Shown one piece after another: positions 10,729 to 20,442 of a stretch of 33,971 nt of DNA; the stretch's first letter is position 1; each line of letters opens with the position of its first letter. This DNA is from Nitrospira sp. (GTDB taxonomy: Bacteria > Nitrospirota > Nitrospiria > Nitrospirales > Nitrospiraceae). The stretch spans positions 11,945-45,915 of the forward strand of contig SWDP01000006.1 of NCBI GenBank assembly GCA_005116885.1, read 5' to 3'. The notes beneath the pieces are model-generated. The model worked only from the letters and a program-made list of their open reading frames with translations, ran no database searches and was not told where the DNA came from. A program made the position numbers and the translations under genes.

Positions 10729-12486
10729 ATGAGTGATCGCCGACCCGCGCAGCCACAGGATCCAGCATCCAACGGGAAGACTGAGGATCCCCTGAATCAA
10801 TCCATGCGCATGGAATCCGATCCGCTCGAGCTCATAGAAGAATGTCTTGCCTCTTTCTCAGATAGTGATCCTCGACAGAAGATCCTCTACAAGCTGCGCC
10901 ATGTCGTGACCATTGGGCAAGCCGCGCAGAAGCAGCGAGAAGTTGAATTCAAGAAAGTTGCCGATGTTATCGCGAAGCTCACGGCGCCGGCTAATCGGGT
11001 CGGCACTCTACTGGAGGTGCCGGGTGAAGGCCTTGCCAGGATCCTGGTGGGGGGTGCCGAATACTATGCCTCGGTCGATCCACGGGTGCAGGCTGCCGAG
11101 TTAAAGATCGGCGCCCAGATTCTCGTGAATGAGGCGTATGCGGTGATTAAGGTCTTGGGCTACGACCGTAATGGGCCTGTGTTGAAAGTAGCGGAAACGT
11201 TGGCGGATGGGCGGCTTCGTTTCGAGCAGGAGATGGGGCGGCAGGTCTTGATCCTCCAGCGGTCGAGCGATCTTGTCGGCGTGGACCTGAAGGCAGGCGA
11301 TGAGGTGCGTATCGAGCCTAGCCTCCATGTGGCGATCGAAAAACTGGAAGACCGGAAAGCTAAGTCCCACTTGCTCGACGAGGTTCCCACGGTCACATGG
11401 GAGCAGATCGGTGGGCAAACGGAGGCGATCACAGCCATTCAGAAAGCTATCGAGTACCCCTTGCTCCATGCGGAGACGTTTCAGCGCTTCAAGTTTACTC
11501 AACCGAAGGGCTTCCTGCTCCATGGTCCTCCAGGTTGTGGAAAGACCTTAATTGGACAGGCGGCAGCCGCCAGCCTCTCGAAGCTGGTGGGGGAGTCGGG
11601 CCAGGCTGGCTCCGGTCCGAAGGGAGACAAGATTCCCGTGACTCGCGGGGCCTTCCTCCACATCAAAGGGCCAGAGATTCTGAATATGTGGCTGGGGGAG
11701 TCGGAGCGGATGGTCAGGGACCTGTTCGCCCAAGCCCGTGCTCGTCGGAAAGAGGGGGCATTGCCGTTTATTTTTATCGATGAGGCGGAATCGGTTCTCG
11801 GGACGAGACGGGCTTCTCGTTCTTTTAATATTTCCAGCACGCTGGTCCCGATGTTCTGTTCCGAGATGGACGGGATTGAATCGTTGCAAGATGTGGTGAT
11901 CATTCTAGCTTCGAATCGTCCTGATTTGATCGACCCGGCTGTGCTGCGACCAGGGCGTATCGATCGCAAGATTAAAGTGAGCCGTCCGAATCGTGATTCG
12001 GCGGCATCGATTTTGAGTGTGTATCTCACGGATGATCTACCTCTGGACCGGCAATGGATCGACCAGCATGGTGGAGACCGGAAGAAAGCCTGTGGCGACC
12101 TTGTCGAGCACGCGCTTTCCGCGATCTTCTCGCGTATCGATGAGAATCGACTGCTGTCGGTCAGGCTCAGAAACGGGCAGAATAAGGTGCTGTATCGGAG
12201 CGATCTGATCAGCGGTGCGATCCTGGCTTCAATCGTGCAAAGGGCGAAGGAACAGGCGATCGATCGCATGATTGCGTCCGGTGGGACTGACCAAGGCGGC
12301 ATGACCTTGGACGATCTGGTGAACGCGGTGCACGCAGAGTTCCGAGAGGGCGAGATGCTCCCGCCTGACGATGCAGCGGAAGAATGGCTCAAGCTGCTCG
12401 ATCACCATCCGGAGCAGGTCGTGGGAGTCTCGTCGTTTCGACGCGGGCGGCAGTCCGAAGAGCGACTGATCAATCAAATTATTTAA
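10729..12486 (+). CDS. mpa: proteasomal AAA+ ATPase (ARC/Mpa)
   Basis: The 585-residue ATPase forms hexamers that bind the modifier, unfold its conjugates and feed them to the 20S proteasome. An N-terminal tail is followed by a coiled coil (about 55-90), which in Mpa docks the Pup-like modifier, and OB-fold domains (about 92-205). The AAA domain has Walker A G266-P-P-G-C-G-K-T, the pore-loop region I-K-G-P-E-I-L-N-M-W, Walker B F-I-F-I-D-E-A-E-S (347-355) and the arginine-finger region R-P-G-R-I-D-R. The C terminus ends L-I-N-Q-I-I and lacks the penultimate tyrosine of the GQYL tail that docks Mycobacterium Mpa onto its proteasome. A GGAGG (10717-10721) precedes the ATG by 7 bases. It is the first gene of the proteasome locus. 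Confidence 0.97.
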   Translation: MSDRRPAQPQDPASNGKTEDPLNQSMRMESDPLELIEECLASFSDSDPRQKILYKLRHVVTIGQAAQKQREVEFKKVADVIAKLTAPANRVGTLLEVPGEGLARILVGGAEYYASVDPRVQAAELKIGAQILVNEAYAVIKVLGYDRNGPVLKVAETLADGRLRFEQEMGRQVLILQRSSDLVGVDLKAGDEVRIEPSLHVAIEKLEDRKAKSHLLDEVPTVTWEQIGGQTEAITAIQKAIEYPLLHAETFQRFKFTQPKGFLLHGPPGCGKTLIGQAAAASLSKLVGESGQAGSGPKGDKIPVTRGAFLHIKGPEILNMWLGESERMVRDLFAQARARRKEGALPFIFIDEAESVLGTRRASRSFNISSTLVPMFCSEMDGIESLQDVVIILASNRPDLIDPAVLRPGRIDRKIKVSRPNRDSAASILSVYLTDDLPLDRQWIDQHGGDRKKACGDLVEHALSAIFSRIDENRLLSVRLRNGQNKVLYRSDLISGAILASIVQRAKEQAIDRMIASGGTDQGGMTLDDLVNAVHAEFREGEMLPPDDAAEEWLKLLDHHPEQVVGVSSFRRGRQSEERLINQII

Positions 12487-12534
12487 AGGCGCTAAACGTG
12501 TAGATTTCCGGTCTCAGATGTGGGCGACTCCCCT

Positions 12535-12557
12535 CGTTTCACCTTTCACGTCTAACG
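12535..12557. repeat. TTTCACG-type intergenic repeat (copy 1)
   Basis: The mpa-dop spacer contains CGTTTCACCTTTCACGTC followed by TAACG, just before the dop start. Similar strings occur at 14338-14362, 17580-17598 and 19332-19358. The unit is about TTTCACG(T/C)(T/C)TCACG. Confidence 0.45.
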
Positions 12558-12561
12558 AATT

Positions 12562-14088
12562 ATGCGACTCTACGGCATCGAAACAGAGTATGGGATTACG
12601 AGGGAAGACCAGGACGCGGTCGATCCGGTCGTGGAGTCGATGGAACTGGTGCGAGCCCATCTGACGGCCTCCTTCGAGCGGCGCTGGGACTATGGTGGTG
12701 AAGACCCGCACGAAGATGCGCGGGGGTTCCGGGTTTCCGGCTTACAACAGGATAAAGAAGAGGACGAATTCTCCAAGGTCGATGCCCATCGGCCATTTTC
12801 ATTTCACGAGATGAAGAGCGATCTCGTGCTTCCAAACGGGGCACGCTTCTACAACGATCATACGCATCCTGAATACTCCACGCCTGAATGCCGAACGTTG
12901 CGAGATATCCTGGCACATGACCGTGCAGGGGAGCGCATTACCCAGCGAGCGGCGGCGAGGCGTAATCACGCGCTTGGCGGGCCGCATGTGCAACTCTACA
13001 AGAACAACACAGACTTTCACGGACACAGTTACGGCTGTCACGATAACTACCTCGTCTCTCGTTCGATTCCCTTCCCTTCGCTGACCGCGGGGTTACTGCC
13101 GTTCCTTGTCAGCCGGCAGATCATTGCTGGCGCCGGGAAAGTTGGGGTTGAAGGTCAAGAAAACGGGTTCGTGCCGGGCCAGTACCAGCTGTCTCAACGA
13201 GCTGATTTTATGGAGACGGACTTAAGCGTCGATACGATGCACAACCGGCCCATTCTGAATACGAGGGACGAGCCGCACGCGGTTCGGGAAAAATACCGTC
13301 GGCTCCATCTCATCGTCGGCGATGCCAATATGTGCGAGTACGCAACGGCGTTGAAGGTTGGGACGACGCAGTTGGTATTGGAGTTGATTGCGCGCAAGGC
13401 GGCACCGACTCTTGAATTAGAGCATCCCGTCACTGCGGTGAAGCAGCTGTCTCGCGATCAGAATCTGAAGGCGACGGTCCGTCAAAAGAACGGCAGCACC
13501 ATCACGGGCCTCGACATTCAAGAGCAGTACTACCTCGCGGCCGAGAAACATTTAGCCGGTGTTGATGCAGAGACCGATTGGATCCTTCGCGAATGGGCGG
13601 CCACGCTGCGGTTGCTCACCGGTGATCGAGTACAACTCGTCGGGCGGCTCGATTGGGTCACTAAACTCTGGCTGTTAGAAACTTTTATACAGGAAGAGCG
13701 GATTGGATGGGACGATCCCTGGCTGGCGAGTTTGGATTTGGAGTACCATAATGTGAATCCTGAACGCGGGCTCTTCCTGGGAATCGAGGCCGAGGGGAAG
13801 GCTTGGCGGATGACGTCGGAGCAGGATGTCGAATCGGCATTGGTGGTTGGCCCGGCCGATACGAGAGCAGGGATTCGCGGCCTCTGCATTAGGCGGTTTC
13901 CGGATCAGATCAAGTCGATGCAGTGGGAACGTATTCAGTTCAGCGGTGGGCTGCTTCCGCGGAAATTAGAGATGGGCGACCTCTTCGAGCCAGAGGCGGT
14001 GCAAGTCTGCGCGCAGATATTCGAAAGCGCGGCATCCCCAGTGGATGCGTTGAACGCATGGAACAGTGAAAAGGAGTCTCGATCATGA
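12562..14088 (+). CDS. dop: Dop, deamidase/depupylase homologue acting on the UBact modifier
   Basis: The 508-residue protein belongs to the Pup ligase/Dop carboxylate-amine ligase family. It starts M-R-L-Y-G-I-E-T-E-Y-G, with the glutamates that bind magnesium and ATP. R-W-D-Y-G-G-E-D-P-x-x-D-A-R-G-F is the Dop-type motif. F-Y-N-D99-H-T-H-P-E-Y-S carries the aspartate used as nucleophile in Dop. Y-K-N-N-T-D and N-T-R-D-E-P-H-A are further family blocks. Dop is preferred over PafA because of the R-W-D-Y block and the D-H-x-H-P-E-Y-S form. Since the modifier here already ends in glutamate, its main role would be cutting the modifier off targets. The stop overlaps the ubact start by 4 bp. Confidence 0.93.
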   Translation: MRLYGIETEYGITREDQDAVDPVVESMELVRAHLTASFERRWDYGGEDPHEDARGFRVSGLQQDKEEDEFSKVDAHRPFSFHEMKSDLVLPNGARFYNDHTHPEYSTPECRTLRDILAHDRAGERITQRAAARRNHALGGPHVQLYKNNTDFHGHSYGCHDNYLVSRSIPFPSLTAGLLPFLVSRQIIAGAGKVGVEGQENGFVPGQYQLSQRADFMETDLSVDTMHNRPILNTRDEPHAVREKYRRLHLIVGDANMCEYATALKVGTTQLVLELIARKAAPTLELEHPVTAVKQLSRDQNLKATVRQKNGSTITGLDIQEQYYLAAEKHLAGVDAETDWILREWAATLRLLTGDRVQLVGRLDWVTKLWLLETFIQEERIGWDDPWLASLDLEYHNVNPERGLFLGIEAEGKAWRMTSEQDVESALVVGPADTRAGIRGLCIRRFPDQIKSMQWERIQFSGGLLPRKLEMGDLFEPEAVQVCAQIFESAASPVDALNAWNSEKESRS

Positions 14089-14279
14089 ACTACATCTCAA
14101 TGCCGGAGCGGCGGGAAGGCCCAGGCAATCCGATGCCGAAGGCGCCGAGTCCGTCTGATGAGGGTGGCGGTCCGAAGCGACCGGAGACTGGGTCGCCCGA
14201 CAAGGACAATCTGCTCAAACGCATGCGCAAGGTCGATCCGAAACAGGCCGAGCGGTATCGGCAGAGGACTGGGGAGTAA
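14085..14279 (+). CDS. ubact: UBact, Pup-like protein modifier
   Basis: This 64-residue, lysine-, proline- and glycine-rich, apparently disordered protein sits between dop and prcB, where Actinobacteria have pup. It resembles the UBact family described from Nitrospirae and some other phyla: a proline/glycine-rich N-terminal half (E-R-R-E-G-P-G-N-P), a helix-prone C-terminal part (L-L-K-R-M-R-K-V-D-P) and a tail R-Y-R-Q-R-T-G-E. The C-terminal glutamate would be linked through its side chain to target lysines by PafA. The start at 14085 has AAGGAG 8 bases upstream and overlaps the dop stop as ATGA. The function is inferred from family and context. Confidence 0.93.
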   Translation: MNYISMPERREGPGNPMPKAPSPSDEGGGPKRPETGSPDKDNLLKRMRKVDPKQAERYRQRTGE

Positions 14280-14337
14280 AGACGTTAAGGGTAAGGGGTT
14301 AGGCGTGAGGGGGTAGCCATGATGTCCTATCGCCTGC

Positions 14338-14362
14338 CGCTTCACGTTTCACGCTTCACAAG
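14338..14362. repeat. TTTCACG-type intergenic repeat (copy 2)
   Basis: CGCTTCACGTTTCACGCTTC followed by ACAAG is the clearest copy of the repeat, in the 94-bp spacer between ubact and prcB. The spacer also contains GGTAAGGGGTTAGGCGTGAG (about 14290-14309), a roughly complementary purine-rich run, so the two may form an imperfect stem in the mRNA between these genes. Confidence 0.45.
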
Positions 14363-14373
14363 GGGTTTTGAAG

Positions 14374-15147
14374 ATGGGGATGCAAGGGGATTTTCTTCAG
14401 TTGTTAAAGGAACAGGGCTATACGCTTGGCGCCTCAACGGCGGTGGGGACTGGCCATGCACTCACGAATGCCACCACGATTTTGGCTTTCAAGTATCGCG
14501 ATGGCGTGCTGGTGGCCGGTGATCGTCGCGCGACCGCAGGCAATATGGTGATGTACGACCGGACAGACAAGGTGTTGGAGATTGATCGGCACAGTGTCAT
14601 GGCGATTGCCGGCGTCCCGGCGACCGCTTATGAAATGGTGCGTGTTTTGGAGCACTCCTTCAAATATTATCGGAGGACGCAGCTGCAAGAGCTGAGTTTC
14701 GACGGCAAACTTCGCGCGGTTTCCAAGCTCTTGAAGGAGAACGTGCCGGCGGCCTTGGCCGGGACGGGCGCGGTGGTCCCGGTGTTTGCCGGCTACGATA
14801 TGGAGCAGGGCTCGGCCAAGATCTATTTCTACGATATCCTCGGGGCGGAGTTTGAAGCTGTTGAGTATGCCGTATCCGGGTCCGGTTCCCCGACGATCCG
14901 AGGGATCTTGCACTATCAGAATACATGGGGCGAGCAGCCCCTGAGTGCGCTGCCTGAAGAACAGGCTATGGTGCAGGCTTTACGATTGCTTGCGAGCGCG
15001 GCGGAGTTCGATTCGGCGACTGGCGGTGTGAACCGAGAGGCAAGTTTGTATCCTGTGATCAAGTTGATTACCGGGGCTGGTGTGCAGACGGTTCCGGACG
15101 CGACGATGAAACCCCTCTATGAATCTCAGGTGGTGCGCTATGTATGA
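14374..15147 (+). CDS. prcB: 20S proteasome beta subunit (catalytic)
   Basis: The 257-residue subunit is the catalytic, N-terminal threonine hydrolase of the core particle. A 33-residue propeptide would be removed to expose T34 (A-T-T-I-L-A-F). Counting from it, D17 (V-A-G-D-R-R) and K33 (D-R-T-D-K) match the Thr1-Asp17-Lys33 catalytic set. S-A-T-G-G and G-S-G-S-P are further proteasome blocks. The ATG at 14374 has AAGGGG upstream with 8-base spacing; an ATG at 14380 and a TTG at 14368 are alternatives. The end overlaps prcA by 8 bp. Confidence 0.97.
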   Translation: MGMQGDFLQLLKEQGYTLGASTAVGTGHALTNATTILAFKYRDGVLVAGDRRATAGNMVMYDRTDKVLEIDRHSVMAIAGVPATAYEMVRVLEHSFKYYRRTQLQELSFDGKLRAVSKLLKENVPAALAGTGAVVPVFAGYDMEQGSAKIYFYDILGAEFEAVEYAVSGSGSPTIRGILHYQNTWGEQPLSALPEEQAMVQALRLLASAAEFDSATGGVNREASLYPVIKLITGAGVQTVPDATMKPLYESQVVRYV

Positions 15148-15970
15148 AGAGCCGTATCGCTGGGTCGAAGCTGTCGGCAATCGGCGCCAATATCTCGACG
15201 AACAGTTCAAGCAGGGGAGTCCGGTTGTCGCTCTGTCCTATGATGGAGGGATTCTCCTGACGACAGTGAGCAAGGGTACTCCAAAGCTCTACGAGATCTA
15301 CGACCGGCTGGCATTGGGGGGAATGGGGCATCCTACGGATTTGGAAAAAATTCGCTTTAGTCTACTCGAAATGGCGCATGTCGAAGGTTTCAATCGTTCC
15401 CCGTCTGACGTCACGGGGTCGAGACTAGTAAAATACGGGATTGCCCCGGTGATCAAGCAGGCCTTTGAGGAAGTCTATAAGGCGCCGTTTATTGTCCGTA
15501 TCTTGGTGGCCGAGTTGGGACAGAAGCCGGAGAAGGATGCGTTGTTGACGATCAACTACGATGGGACGTTTGAGGAAACGACGGGTCGTGCGGTGTTGGC
15601 TGCTACCCCGGCTGTTCAGACGAAGATGATGTCGTATCTCAAAGAGCAGCAGCCGGCTCCGCTGTCATTGGAACAGGCGTTGGATCTTGCTTTGCGCGCC
15701 TGGGCGATTGGTTCGTTGGCGCATCAACAAGATGAGGCAGACCAACAGGCTGAGGCCAAGCCACAGACAAGTAACGCAGCCTCATCGGCCGCCGCCATCC
15801 CCAGTAGTGATACCTTGATCGCACATGTCCGAAGCATTGCCGGTGAACGGACAATCGAATGCGCAATTCTCGAGCGCCAGGCTCCCGGCAGCTCAAAGTA
15901 TCGGTCGCTCAAACAGATGGACCTGTCACGCCTCCTGCCGGCCGCGCTTCAGTCCGTCGTGGCGAACTAA
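15140..15970 (+). CDS. prcA: 20S proteasome alpha subunit
   Basis: The 276-residue alpha subunit forms the outer rings and gate of the core particle and docks the ATPase. It lacks a catalytic N-terminal threonine. Family features include G-S-P-V-V-A-L-S-Y-D-G-G, Y-E-I-Y-D-R-L and D-V-T-G-S-R-L. It is somewhat longer than the Mycobacterium subunit (about 248) because of a low-complexity Gln/Ala/Ser stretch at about 196-224, just before the last beta strands. The ATG at 15140 overlaps the prcB stop and has AGGTGG upstream. It ends 1 bp before the pafA start. Confidence 0.95.
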   Translation: MYEEPYRWVEAVGNRRQYLDEQFKQGSPVVALSYDGGILLTTVSKGTPKLYEIYDRLALGGMGHPTDLEKIRFSLLEMAHVEGFNRSPSDVTGSRLVKYGIAPVIKQAFEEVYKAPFIVRILVAELGQKPEKDALLTINYDGTFEETTGRAVLAATPAVQTKMMSYLKEQQPAPLSLEQALDLALRAWAIGSLAHQQDEADQQAEAKPQTSNAASSAAAIPSSDTLIAHVRSIAGERTIECAILERQAPGSSKYRSLKQMDLSRLLPAALQSVVAN

Positions 15971-15971
15971 G

Positions 15972-17456
15972 ATGTTGAACCGTATTTTCGGACTTGAAAC
16001 CGAATACGGACTCTTGGTTAATCAAGAGCGGCCCGATCATTCCCCGACGTGGTTCGCCCACAAGATCCGAGACCATCTCTTTCACGTTCAGCGGCGAGGC
16101 GTCCTCGATCTGCACCACCGGGGTCACGATGAACCCCCTGGCAACGGAGGATTTCTCACCAACGCCGGGCGCATGTATCTGGACATGGGGCATCTGGAAT
16201 GGGCTTCACCGGAGTGTGAATCGCTCAGCGATGTGGTGGCAGCCGACCGGGCTGGCGATCAGTTGCTGCAGGAAGCGGTGCACGATCTCGGTCTGGCAGA
16301 TACGGTGTCATTGATCAAGAACAATGTGGATCATGAGACCGATGCGACCTTTGGATCCCACGAGAACTATCTCGTCTCGCGGCGCTTTCCCTTTACGCGT
16401 CGAGGCCTCGGCCCGTTTGTGACCTTCCTCGTCACCAGGCAGATCTTTACAGGGGCGGGACGTATCGGTACCGCTGGCCCTCAAGATGGCTGGGTCCAGA
16501 TGGACCGGCTCCTTGTTCCGCGAGGAGTGAGCCATCGCTATGCGCAGGAGTCTTCCCTCCCGTTTCAGATTTCTCAGCGCGCGGACTACATCGTGAACGA
16601 TTTTTTCGAATGGGTGCAGCAGAATCGCGCGATCGTCAATACCAGAGATGAACCCTTAGCCGACCCTAATCAATTTCGGCGTATTCACTTGTTATTGGGT
16701 GACTCAAATATGGCTGAGGTCGCCACAGGCTTGAAGCTGGGGACGACGGGGCTGGTTCTTCAACTCATCGAAGAAGGCCACGCGCCGCTCGATCTCGACC
16801 TCAATGAGCCGGTCGAAACTATGCAGGACCTATCGCAAGATCAGAGTCGGCAATGGATTGTTCAGTTGCAGTCGGGGAAGACGATCTCCGCGATCGATAT
16901 TCAAGAAGCGTTTCTCGTGGCGGCGGAAGAACACTATCGTGGACAGGACGATGAAACCGATTGGGTGCTTGACCAATGGGAAACAGTCTTACGCGATCTC
17001 CGTGGGGACTACCAGGCGCTGGTGGGTCGGGTCGATTGGGCCTCGAAGTTATGGCTGCTTGAAACCTTTCGCGAGGCGGAGCAGATGACGTGGGCGGACC
17101 CGTCGCTGAAGAGCCTCGATCTGGAATACCATAATCTCAATCAAGGCAAGGGGCTCTATTATGGTCTTATGGAAGAAGGGCGGGTTCCACGCCTCATTAC
17201 GGACAAGGCGATTGCGTTGGCGATGGACCATCCTCCACGCAATACCAGGGCATTTGGGCGAGGTGAACTTGTTCGTCATTTGTTAGCATGTGGACTTCCG
17301 GACGCATCTGACGATCCCAAGCCGGAGGAACGGTTTTCTCCCTCGTATGTGATTAACTGGTCTATCTTTCAACTGCGTGGCCACGCGCCCTTTCCTATGC
17401 CGGACCCGTTTAAAACCTACGTGCAGGAAGTGCGGACCCATCTTCAATCAGCCTGA
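15972..17456 (+). CDS. pafA: PafA, ligase that conjugates the UBact modifier to proteins
   Basis: The 494-residue enzyme is the second member of the Pup ligase/Dop family in the locus. It would phosphorylate the C-terminal glutamate of the modifier and join it to target lysines. I-F-G-L-E-T-E-Y-G holds the catalytic glutamates, M-Y-L-D71-M-G carries the catalytic aspartate, and K-N-N-V-D, G-S-H-E-N-Y-L-V and N-T-R-D-E-P follow. The C terminus (I-N-W-S-I-F-Q-L ... D-P-F-K-T-Y) lines up with the end of Mycobacterium PafA rather than Dop. The usual G-S-H-P-E-Y is replaced by G-H-L-E-W. The start at 15972 lies 2 bases after the prcA stop codon begins its TAA end. Confidence 0.93.
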   Translation: MLNRIFGLETEYGLLVNQERPDHSPTWFAHKIRDHLFHVQRRGVLDLHHRGHDEPPGNGGFLTNAGRMYLDMGHLEWASPECESLSDVVAADRAGDQLLQEAVHDLGLADTVSLIKNNVDHETDATFGSHENYLVSRRFPFTRRGLGPFVTFLVTRQIFTGAGRIGTAGPQDGWVQMDRLLVPRGVSHRYAQESSLPFQISQRADYIVNDFFEWVQQNRAIVNTRDEPLADPNQFRRIHLLLGDSNMAEVATGLKLGTTGLVLQLIEEGHAPLDLDLNEPVETMQDLSQDQSRQWIVQLQSGKTISAIDIQEAFLVAAEEHYRGQDDETDWVLDQWETVLRDLRGDYQALVGRVDWASKLWLLETFREAEQMTWADPSLKSLDLEYHNLNQGKGLYYGLMEEGRVPRLITDKAIALAMDHPPRNTRAFGRGELVRHLLACGLPDASDDPKPEERFSPSYVINWSIFQLRGHAPFPMPDPFKTYVQEVRTHLQSA

Positions 17457-19358: not shown

Positions 19359-19385
19359 TACCGATCTTCGGCTGTGGGAAAAAGC

Positions 19386-19420
19386 AAAAGGGGTACTTCA
19401 CAGAGTGAAGCACCCCTTTT
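19386..19420 (-). terminator. Rho-independent terminator of the tRNA-Asn gene
   Basis: AAAAGGGGTGCTTCAC and GTGAAGTACCCCTTTT form a 16-base-pair stem with one mismatch and a 3-base loop. On the minus strand it is followed by GCTTTTTCC. It begins 9 bases after the encoded CCA of the tRNA. Confidence 0.85.
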
Positions 19421-19470
19421 CGTCTGGATTGGCTCCCCGGGCAGGACTCGAACCTGCGACCAGCCGGTTA

Positions 19471-20026
19471 CAAGTGCCCCAGTTTTTCAACCGGGCTTGG
19501 ACTATCTCTTCACCCGCCTGCAAAAGCAGGGGAGGGTGTCGGGCGCTAGTGAGGCGTTATTGGACGGGTTCCGCAGCCTCTAGTCTCTGCACGGTCCTGC
19601 CTACACGCTGACCCTTCGGCAGGCTTCGCTCAGGATTCCCATTCCGATTCGTCGTGGAATCGGGGCAGGCTTCCCTGAATTCACCCAAAGTTTCAACCAC
19701 GGTTTCCCGTGGAGGCTGCAGTGAGGAGTGAACTTCTCTGTGGCAGTTTGCGCAGAGGAGCACACATTTATCCAACTCCGCTCGGATTTTTTCCCAGCTG
19801 CGGGTGTATCCCTTACTCGAGATACCAAAATCCTTCTTGGTCGAAGTGAGATGATGGAACTCCAACGCTTCCATACATTGATCGTAACCACATCTCTGGC
19901 ATCGCCCACCTTTATAGGTTAAGGCTCTGTAGCGAACCGTCTTCCGGCGTTTGCGGACGGCATCGATGAGATAGTTGCGACGATCGGAGTATGTGCGGCG
20001 CTCCGCCACGAGTCCCCCACGTTCCT
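19471..20026 (-). ncRNA. self-splicing group I intron in the tRNA-Asn anticodon loop
   Basis: The 556-base insert has the group I boundaries: the 5' exon ends in U and the intron ends in G. All four core elements are visible in order on the minus strand: P-like AATTCAGGGAAG (19681-19670), Q-like AATCCTGAGC (19637-19628), R GTGCAGAGACTAGA (19592-19579) and S AAGAGATAGTCC (19510-19499). P4 forms between CAGG and CCTG, and P7 between ACTA and TAGT. An internal guide GCAGCC (19719-19714) pairs with exon bases GGCTGT and gives the required G-U at the splice site. It is followed by a P2 hairpin CCACGG-GAAA-CCGTGG. P5-, P6-, P8- and P9-like hairpins are present. The endonuclease frame fills the loop of P1. 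Confidence 0.92.
19557..20009 (-). CDS. HNH homing endonuclease encoded in the group I intron
   Basis: The 150-residue frame encodes an HNH nuclease. C37-x-x-C40 and C86-x-x-C89 form the zinc ribbon, H52-H53 and the later N88 and H94 (A-N-C-H-R-E-V-H) supply the HNH active site. Such enzymes cut intron-less alleles to spread the intron. The GTG start at 20009 has GGGGGA a few bases upstream and lies 18 bases inside the intron. The HNH domain is finished by about residue 97. The last 53 codons run through the guide sequence and the P, Q and R core elements, so that tail is constrained as RNA and probably has no protein function. Functional expression is not proven. Confidence 0.88.
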   Translation of the reverse strand: MAERRTYSDRRNYLIDAVRKRRKTVRYRALTYKGGRCQRCGYDQCMEALEFHHLTSTKKDFGISSKGYTRSWEKIRAELDKCVLLCANCHREVHSSLQPPRETVVETLGEFREACPDSTTNRNGNPERSLPKGQRVGRTVQRLEAAEPVQ

Positions 20027-20159
20027 ACAGCCGGCTGCTCTACCAACTGAGCTACCGGGGAATCTGGTCCAGACGAAACGAGGGCATTCTAGCATAAACT
20101 AGTGTGGGGGGAGCGAGCATTTTTTAGAGGAGAGACGGATAAGCATGGCCTACGCTTCG

Positions 20160-20429
20160 CTACACATCGAAATCTTCTGTTTCGTCCTCATCCGAGCTTG
20201 CATCCGTGTTACCTGCTGCGACAGATGCGTAATGCTTTGCCCAGGTCAGATAGAGATTACCGCTATCGCGCATGGTATCGGCAGCCTTGACGAGTGTGTG
20301 CGCCAAATCCGGGTCTTTCCCACTGGCATGAATTTCAGCTGCGCGGCGTTCGAGCGCTTTCGGGTATTGATGGATCAGGCCAGAAATCTCTTGAAGGAGT
20401 TCACCTATGACATTGTCTTCAGTTTCCAT
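20160..20429 (-). CDS. small acidic hypothetical protein, 89 aa
   Basis: The gene has a strong ribosome binding site (CCAGGAGGAG, ending 4 bases before the ATG region at 20429), which supports it. The protein is mostly helical, with a block G-E-L-L-Q-E-I-S-G-L-I-H-Q-Y-P-K-A-L-E-R-R and a very acidic tail (S-S-D-E-D-E-T-E-D-F). No membrane segment or signal peptide is present. I do not recognise a family. It lies between the tRNA-Asn gene and the inverted-repeat element and is transcribed in the same direction as the tRNA. Confidence 0.75.
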   Translation of the reverse strand: METEDNVIGELLQEISGLIHQYPKALERRAAEIHASGKDPDLAHTLVKAADTMRDSGNLYLTWAKHYASVAAGNTDASSDEDETEDFDV

Positions 20430-20442
20430 CTATCTCCTCCTG

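Follow-up and report, generated by a model that had tools for sequence, protein, structure and literature searches.

A putative mobile group I intron carrying an HNH endonuclease gene in the apparently only tRNA-Asn(GUU) gene of a Nitrospira genome

The stretch of DNA analysed here (the window, 33,971 nt) carries on its minus strand a tRNA-Asn(GUU) gene which is interrupted inside the anticodon. Without intron mode, ARAGORN calls no tRNA in the whole window; in intron mode it reports tRNA-Asn(gtt) at c[19430,20061], with an intron of 556 nt inserted at 35-36 ("gctgt-Intron-taacc") and a 76-base product. The 5' half has 35 bases and ends in ...CUGU, and the 3' half has 41 bases (UAACC...CCA). 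The last base of the 5' exon is a U (20027) and that of the intron a G (19471); position 19470 opens the 3' exon. The features of the locus are the following:

20027..20061, minus strand: 5' exon of tRNA-Asn(GUU), bases 1-35, ending in G34 U35 (sequence and ARAGORN)
19471..20026, minus strand: group I intron of 556 nt which splits the anticodon between bases 35 and 36, with the omega-G as its last base (Rfam and ARAGORN)
19557..20009, minus strand: HNH endonuclease ORF, 150 codons, GTG start (ORF list, Pfam, PHROGs)
19725..19901, minus strand: HNH domain, Pfam PF01844, residues 37-95 (Pfam)
19714..19719, minus strand: internal guide sequence GCAGCC, which can pair with the exon ...GGCUGU (P1, with U.G at the 5' splice site; complementarity)
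19697..19712, minus strand: P2 hairpin (intron alignment)
19682..19689, minus strand: 5' strand of P3 (Rfam match and alignment)
19581..19586, minus strand: region of the 5' strand of P7, AGACTA (Rfam match and alignment)
19538..19545, minus strand: 3' strand of P3 (Rfam match and alignment)
19513..19536, minus strand: P8 (intron alignment)
19500..19504, minus strand: region of the 3' strand of P7, TAGTC (Rfam match and alignment)
19478..19495, minus strand: P9 hairpin (intron alignment)
19430..19470, minus strand: 3' exon of tRNA-Asn, bases 36-76, CCA encoded (sequence and ARAGORN)
19379..19420, minus strand: hairpin followed by a T-rich stretch just 3' of the tRNA, a likely intrinsic terminator with approximate limits (by eye)

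Once joined, the two halves fold into a cloverleaf with the anticodon GUU, a U1-A72 pair and G73 (ARAGORN; sequence). The joined 76 bases are identical to the uninterrupted gene found at the same locus in intron-less relatives (L257, L259 and others); the junction is therefore no chance fit. An earlier note on this DNA had read two halves of a perfect 76-base tRNA-Asn(GUU), separated by an insert of 556 bp between anticodon bases 35 and 36. The intron mode of ARAGORN and the intact gene of the relatives bear out the host, and the length and the insertion point are also exact.

The insert contains the sole Rfam match at gathering threshold in the window, to RF00028 (cmscan, 19740-19478, minus strand, 63.2 bits for a gathering threshold of 50, E=6e-14), and this match covers the full model (1-253). 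The group I identity proposed earlier thus stands up to the covariance model, and the U before the 5' splice site and the terminal intron G fit it. On the 3' side of the guide, P2, P3, P4, P7, P8 and P9 follow in this order, a core which we take to resemble the Azoarcus type (group IC3). Judged from its sequence, the insert is a group I intron.

The 300 nt which precede the ribozyme core belong to the HNH gene, which is absent from the earlier note. This ORF begins 17 bases into the intron and its codons 1-96 fill the P1 loop; its tail crosses the guide, P2 and core strands, and stops just past the 5' strand of P7. In this respect it differs from the usual intron ORFs, which according to passages of a review (PMC3984707) sit wholly in loops outside the core. 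Because the tail overlaps core strands, translation and folding may compete there. The predicted protein matches Pfam PF01844 (22.6 bits for a cut-off of 21.4, E=1.2e-4) and the HNH endonucleases of PHROGs (phrog_2255, E=3.8e-29). An NCBIfam search with it returns nothing (best 12.7 bits for a cut-off of 150) and a PDB sequence search nothing useful (best E=0.072). With tblastn, something similar is found in 396 phage records; in 393 of them the identity stays below 60% even where it is highest, and in no record does it extend over more than 80% of the query.

Elsewhere in the window, positions 10729-17456 of the plus strand hold a bacterial proteasome cluster, with a proteasomal ATPase and a proteasome subunit (Pfam); the Pup ligase-type gene and the second proteasome subunit next to them are named by eye only.

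The scan of 235 Nitrospirales genomes gives at least 58 RF00028 matches in at least 41 genomes, which are lower bounds since the filters lose some weak matches. Typing of the hosts with the intron mode of ARAGORN gives 30 tRNA-Asn interrupted at 35/36, in 30 of the 235 genomes, 23 tRNA(CAU) and five matches without a host; one further call, "Ala" in L076, is spurious. The matches without an ARAGORN tRNA host (L062, L072, L073, L087, L088) may lie in other host genes or be decayed introns. The 30 Asn introns share a single site, with CTGT before it and G at the end of the intron, so that the U before the 5' splice site and the final G are present in 30/30. An exact pattern for the uninterrupted gene, which defines an intact tRNA-Asn here, is found in 158/235 genomes; 47 genomes have neither the intact gene nor the intron. 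The window's genus is represented by 32 genomes: the intron is present in eight of them and the intact gene in 21, and three show neither.

In sister genomes, the tRNA-Asn at the same locus is uninterrupted and represents the intron-less allele. The flanks are syntenic: the ferredoxin-type gene which precedes the tRNA is found by tblastn in 27 of the 29 other intron loci and in 42 of the 44 empty loci (the loci without it are L051, L056, L235 and L236), and the neighbouring genes also include other oxidoreductase genes, named by eye. The empty site of L257 (G144) is 94.9% identical to the window over 2067 upstream bases. The segment between the ferredoxin-type gene and tRNA-Asn (20158-20440 of the window, minus strand) is conserved across genera and could be a small reading frame, below the length limit of the ORF list, whose product has an acidic C-terminus.

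The search was extended beyond Nitrospirales with a pattern which joins the S element to the 3' half of tRNA-Asn. It gives at least 114 stretches in genome_contigs and 21 in viral_contigs. According to strict rules (acceptor and anticodon stems plus D arm), 68 of the 114 matches listed and six of the 21 viral ones are tRNA-Asn cut at 35/36; the unassigned matches include uninterrupted tRNAs, genes cut by contig ends and cases which may have escaped the rules. As five of the 68 are already in the Nitrospirales set, 69 distinct introns remain in the wide set. The RF00028 threshold is reached by 61 of them (15/18, 16/20, 19/20 and 11/11) and missed by eight. ARAGORN had typed many introns of the wide set as tRNA-Thr(UGU), and some as Arg, His, Tyr, Pro or Asp; this typing is overturned for the loci which the strict rules rejoin as Asn at 35/36. 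In the 74 reassigned loci, 69 tRNAs have U1-A72 and G73, one has U1-A72 and A73, and four have G1-C72 and G73.

The titles of the records name Omnitrophota, many Patescibacteria lineages, Microcoleus/Tychonema/Hormoscilla, Elusimicrobia, Deltaproteobacteria, Thermodesulfovibrionia, Planctomycetales, Chloroflexi, Marinamargulisbacteria and Pacearchaeota, and most of the records are metagenome bins. L092, L094, L098, L133, L135 and L142 are tRNA-Asn group I introns of oscillatorian cyanobacteria (Microcoleus, Tychonema, Hormoscilla and one titled Oscillatoriaceae). Six others (L207, L208, L210, L211, L219, L222) are on contigs of the viral collection; L207 is surrounded by many tRNA genes and could be a phage-borne copy.

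Nine Nitrospirales Asn introns out of 30 contain the HNH gene in intact form, 123-150 codons long. In L044 the insert of the P1 loop is shortened, and the intron of L046 has a short stretch which resembles, by eye, the end of the ORF insert. In the wide set, 26 introns are at least 320 nt long and 19 of these contain an ORF of at least 70 codons. All 19 ORFs match the HNH protein of the window (E 1.9e-4 or better), and 17 of the 19 are outside Nitrospirales (17 of the 69 introns), with 44-67% identity over the matched part. The 96 codons shared by the nine Nitrospirales copies align without any indel. Their dN/dS is 0.042-0.209 in 26 of the 36 pairs, dS being saturated in the other ten pairs and above 1 in many of these 26; the six pairs with dS below 0.5 cover the same range. 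As judged from these ratios, the HNH part is under purifying selection.

This bears on the alternative which survives best, although we consider it unlikely: the intron would splice, and its ORF would no longer be a homing endonuclease, being either decayed or kept as a splicing helper. It draws on the 21 of 30 Nitrospirales Asn introns without an intact ORF, which indicate that the ORF is dispensable for splicing in general, on the overlap of the ORF tail with the core, on the Pfam HNH match of a close relative's ORF (L065), just below the cut-off (20.5 bits for 21.4), and on several wide-set copies which appear truncated or frameshifted (L100, L158, L178 and L193 among them). The low dN/dS and the lack of indels in the HNH part of the nine copies argue against it, as does the fact that every ORF-bearing intron of the wide set encodes the same HNH family. 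We favour the reading of the ORF as a putative homing endonuclease.

The assembly from which the window comes (G000) has one group I intron. It contains 33 RF00005 matches, 30 of which are typed by ARAGORN, and none of these 30 is a tRNA-Asn; the remaining three, read by eye, have no GTT anticodon loop. The genome thus looks devoid of tRNA-Asn because default ARAGORN and RF00005 miss the interrupted gene. (One match in this genome, L090, at G000:C7:37368-37459, is a tRNA-like sequence of 92 bases with 35.2 bits and a long variable region, which ARAGORN types as Ala(cgc).) The earlier note had considered that the interrupted gene may be the only tRNA-Asn gene, and the genome search agrees: no second one is found in this assembly, which is 83.91% complete in 49 contigs, so that a second gene could lie in the missing part.

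A search with the joined 76-mer finds tRNA-Asn as nothing but halves in ten intron genomes (G000, G054, G063, G199, G200, G022, G155, G156, G143 and G079), four of which are single-contig genomes (G054, G063, G199, G200). The same search recovers the full gene in the intron-less controls G144 and G061, and a 97% match over bases 7-76 in the intron-less G145; the other matches, at 75-83% over longer stretches or short, are presumably other tRNAs. The intact pattern is found in none of the 30 Nitrospirales genomes which carry the intron, compared to 158 of the 205 others. Likewise, 50 of the 63 genomes with wide-set introns were examined and no intact tRNA-Asn match was found in 48 of them; the exceptions, with one match each, are an Elusimicrobia genome and the genome of L148. 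Since the intron genomes of the order, and nearly all of those examined outside it, show no intact tRNA-Asn match, splicing is probably obligatory for the reading of AAY codons.

It could be argued that the interrupted gene is dead or redundant and its intron under no pressure to splice, with a normal tRNA-Asn in the 16% which the assembly lacks. The incompleteness of the assembly and its 49 contigs leave room for this, which nevertheless appears improbable: the exons are flawless and do not differ from the intact gene of relatives, the intact pattern is missing from all 30 intron genomes of the order, halves only are found in the ten genomes searched, including the four single-contig ones, and the core pairs are maintained by compensatory change.

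The evidence for compensatory change comes from an alignment of the cores of 99 distinct tRNA-Asn introns (30 from Nitrospirales and 69 from the wide scan). In 36 chosen pairs of P2, P3, P4, P7, P8 and P9, 92.9% of the cells are standard pairs; this figure is raised by the omission of P6 and of the outermost P3 pair, and for some of the retained P8 pairs the standard share is as low as 58-79%. P5 and P6 are outside the 36 pairs (P6 as first written is 16-58% standard in the wide set), and the outermost P3 pair, which was dropped, is 11% standard in the wide set and 0% in Nitrospirales. When the partner is slid by 1-3 bases as a control, the proportion falls to 31.0-45.2%. Two-sided change is seen in 27 of the 36 pairs; two-sided types are still seen in 16-22 pairs of the slid columns, which makes the percentage of standard pairs the telling measure. 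Compensatory two-sided changes are found in P2, P3, P4, P8 and P9, and P3 and P7 cross. P7 is nearly invariant and adds no covariation support.

P1 is a different case. GCAG is complementary to CUGU in 99/99 introns, having been searched for as such. Covariation between guide and exon had been expected and is not borne out: there is none at exon positions -5/-6 across the 99 introns and the guide is nearly constant, so that P1 is proposed from complementarity. The two rules used to select GCAG disagree in 14 of the 99 rows, so that some rows may be miscut at their 5' end; in the intron of the window, the pairing rule picks another GCAGC than the GCAGCC at 19714-19719. In the wide set, the U/G boundaries hold by construction of the search. 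The P10 pairing with the 3' exon looks weak or absent, by eye on the Nitrospirales introns only, and we presume that the pairing of the exons in the anticodon stem may replace it.

The anticodon loop also hosts tRNA introns which are spliced by proteins, and the insert could in principle be removed by an endonuclease and a ligase, as bulge-helix-bulge introns are, with no ribozyme. The full-length RF00028 match, the covariation of a group I core and the U/omega-G boundaries make this very improbable. The site also speaks against it, at 35/36 compared to 37/38 for most archaeal tRNA introns according to passages of PMC8450103. That the assembly has fused a tRNA gene with a ribozyme sequence unrelated to it is hardly credible, since the junctions are identical in 30 Nitrospirales genomes, including four which consist of a single contig, and recur in named records of other groups. 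In its favour are the metagenomic source of the assembly and the G143 locus, where the 5' half is duplicated and one stretch, probably a scaffold gap, has no self-match.

At this G143 locus (L277, G143:C14:192500-199500), the 5' half of tRNA-Asn occurs twice, at a distance of 1.6 kb. The first copy lies in a 742-base stretch which is 98.8% identical to the window and includes the start of the ORF. The second is part of a gene which is complete and whose intron lacks the ORF; a 291-base stretch of this intron is 98.6% identical to that of the window. About 100 bases nearby have no self-match and are probably a scaffold gap; the arrangement is either a misassembly or a real duplication.

The history of the group I intron was approached with quick trees, whose support values are SH-aLRT only. 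The upstream flanks of L040 fall within genus g1 (support 100), and its intron groups with introns of genera g15/g16 (97); we read this as one supported between-genus transfer into the same site. A transfer of L046 from genus g1 was considered and rejected, because its flanks are also nearest g1 (97). The flank tree has 72 rows; L051 and L235 were dropped as too short, and L056 and L236 are on very long branches. In the intron tree, the 99 Asn introns are separated from the 23 tRNA(CAU) introns by a branch with a support of 100, and 57 of the 118 inner branches are poorly supported. A single origin of the Asn introns is plausible and no stronger than that, because introns of Leu, Ile and Arg tRNAs are outside this tree. 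We regard the element as a probable mobile intron with a specialisation for tRNA-Asn.

Three members of the wide set come from records titled Pacearchaeota (L095:1883-2215, L193:5248-5812 and L100:893-1390), and each is a tRNA-Asn with an intron at 35/36. The tRNA is preceded by an aIF2-beta-like gene and a KRR1-like KH gene in L095 and L193, and by a KH-like gene only in L100. In L095, the Pfam match to eIF-5_eIF-2B is well above the cut-off and the KH matches are just below it; the neighbours in L193 and L100 were named by eye. The Pacearchaeota tRNA-Asn have G1-C72. L095 reaches 83.1 bits with RF00028, and L100 and L193 are below the threshold. The three introns group with four Omnitrophota introns and one intron of the viral collection (support 87). 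The consulted text of Nawrocki et al. (2018, PMC6125680) gives 39 archaeal group I introns, all in rRNA genes and with DPANN lineages among the hosts. The Pacearchaeota introns share with them the intron class and the DPANN hosts, and differ by lying in tRNA-Asn. The same text sets aside two significant matches of the IC3 model as being of doubtful archaeal origin; these could be of the tRNA-Asn kind.

That bacterial tRNA genes can host group I introns is well established. The introns of cyanobacterial tRNA-fMet, whose endonuclease is I-Ssp6803I, were reportedly described by Biniszkiewicz in 1994 and by Bonocora and Shub in 2001. The intron of the window shares with them the class, the position in a bacterial anticodon loop and an encoded homing endonuclease (predicted here), and differs by the host tRNA, the site and an unrelated endonuclease. 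The 23 tRNA(CAU) introns of Nitrospirales, of initiator type by eye, are L050, L058, L059, L061, L063, L066-L069, L071 and L074-L086; the one ORF tested among them, in L059, matches PDDEXK_5 (3.4e-53). With the known bacterial tRNA introns such as that of Azoarcus tRNA-Ile, the intron of the window has in common the class of host and, as judged by eye, a compact core layout; it is set apart from their descriptions by its Asn host, the 35/36 site and an HNH gene in the P1 loop.

In the text consulted, PMC3984707 mentions the Azoarcus tRNA-Ile intron and PMC5733544 adds Arg, Gly and Lys to the cyanobacterial tRNA hosts. A survey of chloroplasts (PMC9840617) also deals with introns in tRNA genes which it calls group I and, in the part consulted, lists tRNA-Asn among the tRNAs without such introns, in contrast to the tRNA-Asn of the window. 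No tRNA-Asn host is named in the consulted parts of PMC8450103, PMC3984707, PMC5733544, PMC11809585, PMC12641178, PMC6125680, PMC11835236, PMC3888941, PMC8096339 or PMC9840617 or, more generally, in what was searched of the open PMC literature. A 2025 preprint by Nakagawa et al. (10.1101/2025.07.03.662931), cited in PMC12641178, is by its title on a novel intron site in tRNA genes of Patescibacteria. Its title fits the Patescibacteria members found here and concerns Patescibacteria, not Nitrospira; it may describe the same tRNA-Asn site. The suggestion of the earlier note that the host is new or little described thus agrees with the literature searched, but the intron is not a one-off (30/235 Nitrospirales genomes and several phyla) and may already be in that preprint.

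The observations which have to be explained are the anatomy of the locus, the covariation of the core, the empty and filled sites, the lack of a second detectable gene, the selection on the endonuclease and one between-genus transfer. The reading which we hold to be very probable is that a group I intron, itself mobile, sits in what seems to be the cell's sole tRNA-Asn(GUU) gene, with an HNH homing gene in its P1 loop and with AAU/AAC decoding hanging on splicing. The precursor would be transcribed and the intron would fold into a group I ribozyme. An external guanosine would attack after U35, held in P1 by the pairing of the guide GCAG with the CUGU of the anticodon loop, and ligation of the exons after the omega-G would restore the anticodon GUU. 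Decoding of AAU and AAC would then depend wholly on splicing. The HNH endonuclease would cleave tRNA-Asn alleles which lack the intron, close to the anticodon, and the intron would be copied in during repair. tRNA-Asn is highly conserved around the anticodon, and the element could for this reason spread between distant hosts.

On balance, we lean towards a broader reading, with less confidence: an ancient intron family, together with one family of P1-loop HNH genes, would be a specialist of the tRNA-Asn(GUU) anticodon and would have spread across many bacterial phyla and into archaea, where its Pacearchaeota members may be the first group I introns seen in tRNA genes. It would persist because the only tRNA-Asn gene of its host becomes dependent on splicing, so that precise loss would be the only way back.

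The supply of an essential tRNA thus seems to hang on an element which is selfish and splices itself. In Nitrospirales, a single syntenic locus is found empty, with an intron that has or lacks the ORF, or with a remnant, so that the cycle by which a homing intron is gained, decays and is lost can be tested there. The archaeal copies, if true, would add the tRNA genes of archaea to the range of group I introns.
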